Below are positions 23,533-33,020 of a stretch of 33,020 bases of DNA, one piece after another. The DNA is from Rhodobiaceae bacterium (GTDB lineage Bacteria > Pseudomonadota > Alphaproteobacteria > RS24), in the NCBI GenBank assembly GCA_018673175.1, contig JABHDF010000071.1, positions 1 through 33,020 of the forward strand, given 5' to 3'. How positions within the stretch are numbered: position 1 is the stretch's first letter; the number at the start of each line of letters is the position of its first letter. The notes beneath the pieces are model-generated. The model was not told the DNA's origin. It did not search any database and saw only the letters and a program-made list of their open reading frames with translations. A program made the translations under genes and the position numbers.

Positions 23533-24600
23533 TTAGTACTTTGGGTTGGAAATTTCGACAAGCCTCCGACAGGCCCATTGAATTGAGAAATAATACACCG
23601 GTATGAACGCTAAAAATCCGATGATACTGATCGCTTCGCCGAATTGGACCGTCAAGCTAAAACCCAGCCAAAAAGCCCCGACCGCAGATAAAATCAAAAT
23701 GAGTAAGGTTCGTCGTGCCGAAAACCCATTATCCATAATTCTATGATGTATATGTGTTCTGTCCGGCGTCATAGGCGAACGACGGTCGGCGAGCCTGCGA
23801 ATTGTAACAAGCACGATATCGGTAACTGGGATAACAATGAGCCATAGGCATAGAGATACGGGAATTTTCGGACCTTCAACGAGCCGCGAAATGTCTTGGC
23901 TTGCGGAAATGATAGTATTTGAGACTATGAGGCCGATCAGCATGGAGCCGCTGTCGCCGAGGAAAACCTTGCGACCGTTAAAAATTTGTAGATTAAACAC
24001 AAGAAACCCCGCGATGGAGCCTGAAAACAAAACAGCGAAAACAGCAAAGTCAGGCGGTGTTGCACCATGAATCAGGTTGAAAGCAAGTTGAGCATGAGTC
24101 AGTGTAAGTAACGCCATGCTAGCGGCTAAGCCATCAATACCGTCAATCATATTGAAGGCATTGATAATCATCACAATGAAAAAGACTGCTATGATCGAAT
24201 GTAAACTGGCAAAGTCTGGCGATCCAAATGTTTCGTTGAAAATGCCAATATTAGAAACTGCCAGGTTTTCGCCCATAACAACAATGGTGGCAGCAGCAAT
24301 ATGGAAAACGAGCTTTATGACCGCAGGCACAGGTTGTCGGTCGTCAACCATTCCTAGAATAACGAGCATGGTTGCCGCCATTATCCCGCCCCAGGGAGGG
24401 TTTGGAATAAAAATCAAAAGTCCTACAACCACCACAAGCCAAATTACAGGCCCCCCGATGAGAGGTATTTCACCTTTATGCTGTTTACGCGCAGACGGTT
24501 TGTCGACCAGCCCTAAGCGGGTTGCTAGGGGTATTAAGGCAATAACAAGTGCTGTTGTAAGCAACGACGCAATAACCGAAATGTAAATTAGGGAGAGCAT
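23533..24600 (-). CDS. WecA/MraY-family glycan-1-phosphate transferase
   Basis: This polytopic membrane enzyme of 355 residues transfers a sugar-1-phosphate from a UDP-sugar to undecaprenyl phosphate, starting synthesis of a polysaccharide repeat unit. WecA/MraY motifs occur in order: KPSARKQHKGEIPLIGGP (34-51), Asp86-Asp87 in GMVDDR for Mg2+, NAFNMIDGIDG (147-157), FLGDSGS (213-219) and the cytoplasmic DRTHIHH (280-286), typical of the WecA side rather than MraY. About ten membrane helices are expected. The start at 24600 follows AAGGAAA. It lies 10 nt after a Wzz fragment and in the same transcript direction. A second, broken copy of this family lies at 26816-27183. Confidence 0.93.
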   Translation of the reverse strand: MLSLIYISVIASLLTTALVIALIPLATRLGLVDKPSARKQHKGEIPLIGGPVIWLVVVVGLLIFIPNPPWGGIMAATMLVILGMVDDRQPVPAVIKLVFHIAAATIVVMGENLAVSNIGIFNETFGSPDFASLHSIIAVFFIVMIINAFNMIDGIDGLAASMALLTLTHAQLAFNLIHGATPPDFAVFAVLFSGSIAGFLVFNLQIFNGRKVFLGDSGSMLIGLIVSNTIISASQDISRLVEGPKIPVSLCLWLIVIPVTDIVLVTIRRLADRRSPMTPDRTHIHHRIMDNGFSARRTLLILILSAVGAFWLGFSLTVQFGEAISIIGFLAFIPVYYFSIQWACRRLVEISNPKY

Positions 24601-24610
24601 AAATATTTCC

Positions 24611-24876
24611 TTACTGAGCAGCCTGATTATGTCGACCCAACATAAAATGTCTAATCAAAGTGAGGCTTGAGTTCAGCCCGTTATATAGGTCCATTTGAGT
24701 GCTGTTGTGGTACAGAAGTTTTAAGATCGCCTTTTGGCCTGGCTCATAAATAAATACCAAAAACGCGAAAACCGGTGCAATAATCAATGCGCTCAACCCG
24801 GCATCAACCATTTGCCATTCCAGATAATTTGGAATAATTCGACAAGATCGATTTCGTCATAGTGTACTTCTGTCAT
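24611..24876 (-). pseudogene. Wzz-type chain-length determinant, frameshifted N-terminal fragment
   Basis: An excellent ribosome site (AAGGAGAGG, 24881-24889 on the plus axis) leads to an ATG at 24876 and a 27-codon frame ending at 24793. Its EIDLVELFQIIWNGKW is the N-terminal signature of Wzz co-polymerases and parallels EIDLKELIVTLWEGKL of the intact Wzz at 32181. A one-base deletion near 24800 then shifts the frame. Restoring it gives KWLIAGLSALIIAPVFAF, a good first membrane helix, continuing to a stop at 24611. The total would be about 88 residues against roughly 300 or more for a Wzz; the periplasmic domain and second helix are missing. The downstream 66-codon frame (from 24811) might be expressed alone, but most likely this is a relic. 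Confidence 0.75.
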
Positions 24877-24933
24877 AAAGCCTCTCCTTACCGTATTTTG
24901 TTATATGCTAGTGAAACACTAAAATGAACGTTG

Positions 24934-24964
24934 ATTATTGATATTTTTAATTATTGATATTTTT
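24934..24964. repeat. 15-bp direct repeat, two copies, 16-bp period
   Basis: ATTATTGATATTTTT occurs at 24934-24948 and again at 24950-24964. The pair lies between the 19-codon ORF and the Wzz fragment, in their common leader if they are cotranscribed. It could be a pair of regulator sites or simple AT-rich slippage. Confidence 0.6.
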
Positions 24965-24996
24965 TGGCTTTTTTGGATACGCCGAGGCGCGGGATA

Positions 24997-25056
24997 TTAA
25001 GTGATTACAAATAATCCGAACGCTGCATAGCCGATGAGTGAGAAGTAAATGTACAT
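24997..25056 (-). CDS. Candidate 19-residue hydrophobic peptide ORF
   Basis: The ATG at 25056 is preceded by GGAG with 5-nt spacing, and the frame encodes MYIYFSLIGYAAFGLFVIT followed by TAA. The peptide is uniformly hydrophobic, like a minimal membrane-spanning peptide. Its ribosome site lies in one arm of a perfect 7-bp hairpin. It reads toward the Wzz fragment and WecA gene, so it could be a leader peptide or an independent small membrane protein. No family is recognised, and with 19 codons chance cannot be excluded. Confidence 0.4.
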   Translation of the reverse strand: MYIYFSLIGYAAFGLFVIT

Positions 25057-25058
25057 GA

Positions 25059-25102
25059 TATCTCCATATTATATAGGAGATACCTTTCTATCGAATAGAA
25101 AG
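25059..25102 (-). promoter_or_regulatory. Tandem hairpins, one covering a ribosome site
   Basis: On the minus strand, CTTTCTAT-TCG-ATAGAAAG (25102-25084) is a perfect 8-bp hairpin. It is followed by TATCTCC-TATATAATAT-GGAGATA (25082-25059), a perfect 7-bp hairpin whose 3' arm contains the GGAG ribosome site of the 19-codon ORF. This geometry is that of a translation-control leader. The loop contains TATAAT, so the same bases could instead be a -10 promoter box. On the plus strand the first hairpin is followed by TTTTT (25103-25107) and could terminate transcription, though no plus-strand gene ends there. Confidence 0.5.
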
Positions 25103-25227
25103 TTTTTGCAAGTTAATTATGGTATATATCTATTTAGTAGGCACACAAATTTGTTAAGCGTTTTGTTGTTATGAGTTTTGGCTCTTTCATTTAATGCGGA
25201 TAAAGTTATCAAAAAAAGCGTTTGTAA

Positions 25228-25521
25228 ATGAGTAAGTTAGGCACTTATGCGGAACTTAGTGCAGTGTTGCATGCGATGAAAGAAGATATTGACTTAGGTA
25301 ACGATACCTCTGCTGAAAAAAATATACTTTCAGCTGTTGCTCAATTGCAAAATAACGAGCCCTGAGGCATGTTTGTGCAATCGAGCGAAATTAAAATGCA
25401 TCCACTTTGCGCTCAAATGCCTAATCCTAGCTTCTTTAGAGCTTTGAAAGAGCTTCTGGATGATGGCGCTATCAGCCTTCCGATGAATCGGAAAAAAGGG
25501 CTTTACCGACTAGGGGCCTAA
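25228..25521 (+). pseudogene. Small regulator-like gene interrupted by in-frame TGA
   Basis: An ATG at 25228 opens a 45-codon frame (MSKLGTYAELSAVLHAMKED...) ending in TGA at 25363-25365. The same frame continues after one codon (GGC) with an ATG at 25369 for 50 codons (MFVQSSEIKMHPLCAQMPNP...) to TAA at 25519. Because both parts share one frame, they read as one 97-codon gene with a premature stop. The second part, SFFRALKELLDDGAISLP then KKGLYRLG, looks like a recognition helix and wing of a winged-helix protein. Alternatives are two coupled small genes, TGA readthrough or a sequence error. Family not recognised; a regulator of the adjacent polysaccharide genes is plausible. Confidence 0.55.
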
Positions 25522-25590
25522 AGTGACTTAATTCTTGAGTGTCAATTTTTGACACTGACCTGTTCAAGCAAAAACGTTAAGTATGTTCAT

Positions 25591-26301: not shown

Positions 26302-26808
26302 TTGTCGGCCAATTGGTATGCCGCACAGCTAAAAGCAAACGGCTTCTCAAAGTCTTTTGCAAATCTCGATCGCCAGGGTTTCCAGTCCTTCATGCCGCTT
26401 CGACGCGCAACGGTCAGACATGCCCGACAAGTGCGCGAAACCTTAAAACCTATTTTTCCGGGTTACCTCTTTAACCGCTTTGGCGAAAGCCATAGTGATT
26501 GGCGGAAGGTAAATGCTACAACAGGTGTGTCAAAGCTCATAAGTTTCGCGCAGAACCTGCTCGCGCCCGTGCCACAGGAGTTAATAGACAGCCTGAGGCT
26601 GCGCTGCGATCAAAAAAATATTTTATTACCGCTGACCGACTTGGCCGCGGGTGTCCGGGTTAAGGTATTATCAGGGGCATTTTGGGAGTTTAATGGTCAA
26701 GTCGAGACGCTACTTCAAGGTGATTGTACCCAGCTGTTATTGGAGTTTATGGGGCAAACTACGCGCGTTGATATATCGAAAATTGAGCCTGAAAGGTCTG
26801 AGATTTGA
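26302..26808 (+). CDS. NusG/RfaH-like transcription antitermination factor
   Basis: This 168-residue NusG paralogue would bind RNA polymerase and let it read through long polysaccharide operons. The N-terminal NGN domain starts with NWYAAQLKANG and holds LKPIFPGYLFNRF (about 48-60), a strong family motif. A KOW-type C-terminal domain begins near residue 114 (AAGVRVKVLSGAFWEFNGQVE). The start is a TTG at 26302: an in-frame TAA lies just 2 codons upstream and the protein already begins at the first beta strand. There is no good ribosome site, so expression may be low. No ops-like GGCGGTAG element was seen in the window, so its recruitment site is unknown. The likely targets are the genes from 27389 onward. 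Confidence 0.85.
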   Translation: MSANWYAAQLKANGFSKSFANLDRQGFQSFMPLRRATVRHARQVRETLKPIFPGYLFNRFGESHSDWRKVNATTGVSKLISFAQNLLAPVPQELIDSLRLRCDQKNILLPLTDLAAGVRVKVLSGAFWEFNGQVETLLQGDCTQLLLEFMGQTTRVDISKIEPERSEI

Positions 26809-27183: not shown

Positions 27184-27369
27184 TAAACTCTGACTTTGGG
27201 AATTTTAAAGTCCTTATTGCCTAGACCGGAGATTGCAAGCGTCAAAAACTGACATGCTTTTTAAACAAATGTGAAAAGAACTTACGAAAATGTAGGGTTT
27301 TCCAGTAAAAAGCGGCATTAAAGTATCAAATTTATATTTATTTTATTTGTTTTTATGTAACAATCCTCG

Positions 27370-32180: not shown

Positions 32181-33020
32181 ATGAGTGATACGCCAGATAT
32201 TTACGATGATGAGATTGATCTCAAAGAGCTGATAGTCACGCTTTGGGAGGGCAAGCTCGATATCATTCGCATTACGGGCGTGTCTGCTGTTTTTTCTGTT
32301 GTTTTCGCCCTCTTGCTACCAAATATTTATCACTCAACAGCGACATTGGCGCCTGCTACAATGGGCGAGCAGGGCATGCTCGGCAATTTAGCCTCTCAAT
32401 ATGGCGGGCTTGCAAGCTTGGCCGGTGTTAACCTTCCTGAAGGTGCGCTGACGAAAAAAGATCTTGCCCTTGAGGTGGTTAAATCGCGCAAGTTCATTAA
32501 TCAATTTGTGAAAACTCATAATATTAAGCCGCAATTAATGGCTGTTGATTATTGGGATAGCGAAACAGGTGAGCTTGTCCTCAATGACAGTGTCTATGAT
32601 GTCAAAGCCAAGAAATGGCTTGAGGATGAAGAGCCTCTTAATATTGATGTTTATGAGAGCTTCGAAAGTGCTCTCATATTGGAAGATGATCAATCAACTG
32701 GCATTGTTAAATTGGGCTTTAAACACAAAAGCCCGGTGGAAGCTCAAAAATGGACAAATTGGCTGCTCACAGATCTCAATAATGCCATTCGCGAAAAAGA
32801 TATTACAGAAGCTGAAAGTGCCATTGAATATTTGCGTCAACAAGTTCGCGCGACACCGCTCGCTGAGCTGAAGAAGGTTTTTTACACCCTTATTAGGTCG
32901 CAAACAGAGACAATAATGCTCGCTCAAGTGCGCGAAGAATATGTTTTTACAGCTATTGATCCGGCAGTTGTCCCCGAAAAGAAATCTGAACCAAGCCGCG
33001 CCTTAATCTGTATTTTAATC
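32181..33020 (+). CDS. Wzz-family chain-length determinant / co-polymerase, cut by right edge
   Basis: An ATG at 32181, 11 nt after the export gene with GGGG at 32169-32172 region as ribosome site, opens a frame that runs to the window end without a stop (280 codons). It begins EIDLKELIVTLWEGKL, followed by the first membrane helix (about 29-50), an alpha-helical periplasmic region (about 50-260), and the proline-containing segment DPAVVPEKKSEPSRA that precedes the second membrane helix, which starts as the window ends. Wzz proteins set polysaccharide length in the inner membrane and contact Wza. Whether a tyrosine-kinase domain is fused beyond the edge cannot be seen. An N-terminal relic of a paralogue lies at 24611-24876. 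Confidence 0.9.
   Translation, partial: MSDTPDIYDDEIDLKELIVTLWEGKLDIIRITGVSAVFSVVFALLLPNIYHSTATLAPATMGEQGMLGNLASQYGGLASLAGVNLPEGALTKKDLALEVVKSRKFINQFVKTHNIKPQLMAVDYWDSETGELVLNDSVYDVKAKKWLEDEEPLNIDVYESFESALILEDDQSTGIVKLGFKHKSPVEAQKWTNWLLTDLNNAIREKDITEAESAIEYLRQQVRATPLAELKKVFYTLIRSQTETIMLAQVREEYVFTAIDPAVVPEKKSEPSRALICILI

Follow-up and report, generated by a model that had tools for sequence, protein, structure and literature searches.

A 19-codon hydrophobic ORF with a predicted hairpin over its ribosome binding site, next to a decaying wzz-wecA locus

Sequence conservation among type I toxins is too low for homology searches to detect them, and gene finders miss very short membrane peptides. 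Sequestration of the Shine-Dalgarno (SD) sequence, limiting translation of the toxin mRNA, is common but not universal in type I systems. IbsC is a membrane toxin of 19 residues and the SD of the Fst mRNA is hidden in a stem-loop (PMC8309996), while the one charged residue of IbsC is dispensable for its toxicity (PMC11449926). In the window analyzed here, meaning the whole stretch of 33,020 nucleotides from a Rhodobiaceae bacterium, a minus-strand ORF (Table 1) encodes a peptide that resembles the toxins of the Ibs/Sib type I toxin-antitoxin systems in having the same length of 19 residues, in being hydrophobic and nearly uncharged, and in its intergenic location. In contrast to Ibs/Sib, it exists in a single copy, an antisense RNA is here only conceivable, and no sequence similarity was found, as the peptide had no match in Pfam at E-values up to 10. 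The locus shares with Fst/par an mRNA SD buried in a hairpin and a pair of direct repeats nearby, but the peptide is shorter than Fst and unrelated to it, the repeat follows the ORF, and a counterpart of RNAII would be putative at most.

Table 1. Positions of the features discussed, numbered from the first letter of the window
Feature	Position	Strand	Details
wecA-type glycosyl-1-phosphate transferase, intact	23533-24600	-	PF00953; TIGR02380 below its cut-off
wzz relic, N-terminal part only	24611-24876	-	PF02706 match; reading frame lost after about 25 codons
Promoter-like TTGTTA-16-TAAAAT, facing the ORF	24898-24925	+	speculative antisense start; such sites expected by chance
Tandem direct repeat, head-to-tail 16-nt pair	24931-24946 and 24947-24962		15/16 identical
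19-codon ORF, MYIYFSLIGYAAFGLFVIT	25056-24997	-	ATG at 25056, stop TAA 24999-24997
Hairpin 2, TATCTCC-TATATAATAT-GGAGATA	25082-25059	-	7 Watson-Crick pairs, 10-nt loop
GGAG, SD	25065-25062	-	paired, 3' arm of hairpin 2
TATAAT, candidate -10	25073-25068	-	hairpin 2 loop, exact dyad centre
Hairpin 1, CTTTCTAT-TCG-ATAGAAAG	25102-25084	-	8-bp perfect stem, 3-nt loop
Divergent gene of about 97 codons, one in-frame TGA	25228-25518	+	homologues uninterrupted in four further species of the genus
NusG paralogue	26302-26808	+	RfaH and UpxY models score highest, under their cut-offs
Second Wzz gene, open	about 32196-33020	+	runs off contig end

A preliminary description of this DNA had claimed two perfect tandem hairpins, the second covering the GGAG of an entirely hydrophobic 19-codon ORF, and direct reading of the sequence confirmed two perfect stems in tandem on the minus strand within 24982-25110. 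Hairpin 1 has a predicted folding energy of -4.9 kcal/mol at 37°C. As RNA, hairpin 2 is predicted to gain a G-U and a G-C pair, giving nine pairs at 25084-25057 and -11.1 kcal/mol at 37°C, with its end at 25057 directly abutting the ATG; the extending G-U pair is possible in the minus-strand RNA only. Folding also bore out the coverage of the GGAG, since each of its bases had a probability of being unpaired of at most 0.001 in a temperature series from 4 to 42°C. The 129-nt stretch as a whole (24982-25110, minus strand) folds at -26.1 kcal/mol, corresponding to a z-score of -2.04 against dinucleotide shuffles. The claim of complete hydrophobicity had to be softened: the peptide is hydrophobic, with 19 residues, a GRAVY of 1.74 and no charge, yet it contains Y, S, T and G. 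Among the 38 short ORFs of the window that are preceded by an SD, it is the only one with a GRAVY of at least 1.5.

When the locus is compared with the hallmarks of type I toxins, a short (<60 aa) hydrophobic membrane peptide is predicted from sequence and SD sequestration from the fold, whereas a match to a known toxin family was found neither in Pfam nor as a homologue in phages or in the sampled genomes of the class. Searches with Rfam covariance models likewise returned no match to the element at gathering score, and only chance-level matches below it. By these tests, the element lies outside every known family.

How often such an arrangement arises by chance was estimated on dinucleotide shuffles of the spacer of approximately 350 nt (348 nt for the ORF tests). 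Tandem stems of such kind occurred in 0.125% of the local shuffles, although some tandem stem pair was present in 10% of shuffles of the whole window. A hydrophobic, uncharged ORF of 15-30 codons led by an SD appeared in 0.23% of the 348-nt shuffles, and a short SD-led ORF with its SD inside a stem of at least 7 bp in none of 6000. These tests are post hoc, as the feature was first picked by eye from 33 kb, and they argue for more than chance without proving it. The arrangement is real, statistically odd and lineage-specific.

The genes on the left side of the element proved to be those previously claimed. The first 27 residues of the wzz relic match PF02706 (E-value 0.00099), after which the frame is broken and the remainder is missing, and wecA follows intact; a wecA search of a collection of genome contigs returned distant relatives only. 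The stop codon of the 19-codon ORF is separated by 120 nt from the relic and by approximately 400 nt from wecA. A direct repeat previously given as 15 bp is present in this interval, but measures 16 nt per unit. On the right side, the divergent gene at 25228 belongs to a family of approximately 97 residues with 47-57% identity within the genus and no Pfam or NCBIfam match, and next to it is a membrane protein that, read by eye, resembles a gene near its homologues in relatives. The NusG paralogue heads a polysaccharide export cluster, with Wzi and a polysaccharide export protein further to the right, and its surroundings yielded no ops-like site. The second Wzz gene in the same contig may explain how the first could decay.

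The element DNA, its dyads and the peptide occur as a single copy in their own genome and are absent from the other 27 genomes of the family (28 in all), and element DNA and peptide are also absent from 385 sampled genomes of the class. A peptide match of 55% in one genome (G308) was discarded as chance because it lies antisense within a long ORF. A mobile or repeated element was likewise set aside, given the one copy and the lack of matches in viral contigs, phages and plasmids for those pieces of the element that were searched there. Two relatives, G006 and G024, retain an intact wzz-wecA with a divergent gene ahead of it, and neither a hairpin pair nor a hydrophobic ORF is present upstream. 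The divergent gene of G006 is MarR_EPS-like (TIGR04176), as judged on partial sequence and below the cut-off. Homologues of the divergent regulator at 25228 sit elsewhere in relatives, and in those examined the units that flank the element lie apart. Since the gene order of relatives differs from that of the window, the element would seem to sit at a junction made by rearrangement. Because no relative carries the element, its function is a guess, and without a second copy or a homologue in these family and class genomes nothing points to selection.

Between the divergent gene and wzz, both relatives carry TGTTCA...TGAACA palindromes (L004 of G006 and L006 of G024), which are likely operators. 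Just upstream of the divergent gene beside wzz-wecA, we also observed TGCGGTAGCGTGG (L004, ~3833, plus strand) and TGCGGTAGCATGC (L006, ~3861, plus strand), which we take to be close to the ops/JUMPstart element of RfaH.

The preliminary description had likened the arrangement to an RNA thermometer or to leader-peptide control of polysaccharide initiation, and an SD under a hairpin upstream of a polysaccharide initiation gene does invite a thermometer or an attenuator controlling wecA. ROSE and fourU thermometers also place a hairpin over the SD; however, the stem found here has no internal mismatches and is predicted to be closed at all tested temperatures, nor does the ORF belong among heat-shock or virulence genes. 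With the SD predicted to remain paired throughout the range of 4 to 42°C, we do not find a simple thermometer credible, and the distance from the ORF stop to the relic makes translational coupling to wecA equally not credible. Moreover, attenuation finds no terminator-like site or alternative structure between hairpin and relic, no run of regulatory codons for the peptide and no such leader at the wzz-wecA loci of relatives, and the lack of an Rfam match counts against both forms. We therefore consider control of wecA by either route very improbable, which leaves three options: the peptide itself is silenced, the element acts at the DNA level, or it has no role.

In a role at the DNA level, the inverted repeats would be protein-binding dyads, the wzz relic and wecA would be transcribed leftwards from a promoter with TATAAT as its -10, and the ORF would be incidental. 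A regulator on dyad 2 would then sit over the -10, and a regulator on dyad 1 over the -35 region. TATAAT had already been named as a rival promoter, and its position agrees with promoters that carry a palindromic operator over the -10, as it is exactly central in dyad 2 and dyad 1 follows approximately 22 bp upstream, near -32, or about two helical turns away. The palindromes upstream of wzz in the relatives, beside the divergent gene, make an operator here plausible, but the dyads share no sequence with them, and a convincing further copy of either dyad is found in neither the genome nor the genus. As a promoter the site scores poorly: its -10 is perfect but its -35, TTCGAT at 16 bp, is poor, its best score is 7.17 where the best site of a shuffled region has a median of 8.07, no further sites of this kind are present, the regulator is only hypothetical, and since the loop of hairpin 2 is all A/T, TATAAT would arise in it by chance in ~8% of cases by our own estimate. 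An operator common to the element and the 25228 regulator was rejected, as all homologues of that regulator lack upstream dyads of this kind. Altogether, we regard a DNA-level role as unlikely. Slightly less doubtful is that the spacer is non-functional debris, an AT-rich rearrangement junction where a decaying wzz-wecA unit meets a displaced unit with the regulator, and in which the stems and the open frame arose by chance. The broken wzz, the in-frame TGA of the neighbor at 25228, the separation of the flanking units in relatives, the GC content of 0.316 in the spacer against 0.513 in the window, the retention of the element in no relative and the frequency of tandem stems in whole-window shuffles all fit this reading. 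On the other hand, the joint occurrence of a stem over the SD, correct spacing and an uncharged hydrophobic ORF was not seen in any of the 6000 local shuffles.

Our preferred, though tentative, reading, to which we assign a probability of approximately 0.35 and which we rank barely ahead of debris and then of an operator or promoter, is a lineage-specific membrane micropeptide that would be translationally silenced by the logic of Ibs-, TisB- and Fst-type I toxin mRNAs. The analysis establishes the sequence, the predicted fold, the uncharged hydrophobic ORF and how seldom they arise in shuffles; transcription of the minus strand, translation, membrane insertion and any antitoxin are inferred. 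The minus-strand RNA would begin upstream of hairpin 1 and fold two stable stems, of which hairpin 2 would hold the SD and the spacer up to the start codon and so block ribosome loading, until the stem is opened by, for example, processing, an antisense RNA or a standby-binding ribosome. The product would be a tiny, membrane-inserting peptide whose own mRNA keeps itself silent. A silenced micropeptide is favored by the nine-pair stem that reaches the ATG and stays closed, by the rarity of its parts in shuffles, by its standing as the sole strongly hydrophobic SD-led short ORF of the window, by the extending pair restricted to the minus-strand RNA, and by the parallels with IbsC and the Fst mRNA. 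Against it stand the single copy without homologues, the decaying locus with its broken wzz and interrupted neighbor, the post hoc statistics, and the lack of a convincing promoter on either strand of the region in promoter-site scoring.

Read on the plus strand, hairpin 1 runs into TTTTT and gives a weak terminator-like site (25084-25107, -4.9 kcal/mol, two G-C pairs) that could end an antisense RNA. Together with the promoter-like site facing the ORF, it makes a plus-strand antisense RNA of about 175 nt conceivable, but both signals are weak or at chance level. A complete lineage-specific type I toxin-antitoxin system of ~170 nt, in which the SD-hairpin-silenced peptide would be paired with such an RNA ending at the hairpin and TTTTT at a rearranged polysaccharide locus, would be an improbable extension of the silenced micropeptide. 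If the micropeptide is real, an SD-occluding hairpin before an uncharged tiny ORF would be a usable search signature outside well-studied bacteria; if the locus is a promoter or debris, it is a warning not to infer an RNA switch from one sequence.

Other palindromes were observed in the window. Two similar ones, TGTCAAAAATTGACA (25538-25556) and GTCAAAAACTGACA (27241-27256), lie in two spacers of the cluster and are possibly the operator of one regulator, and a 22-nt palindrome, TGAGCTCAAAGTCATGAGCTCA, occurs twice at the contig end (11-32 and 39-60), 28 nt apart.
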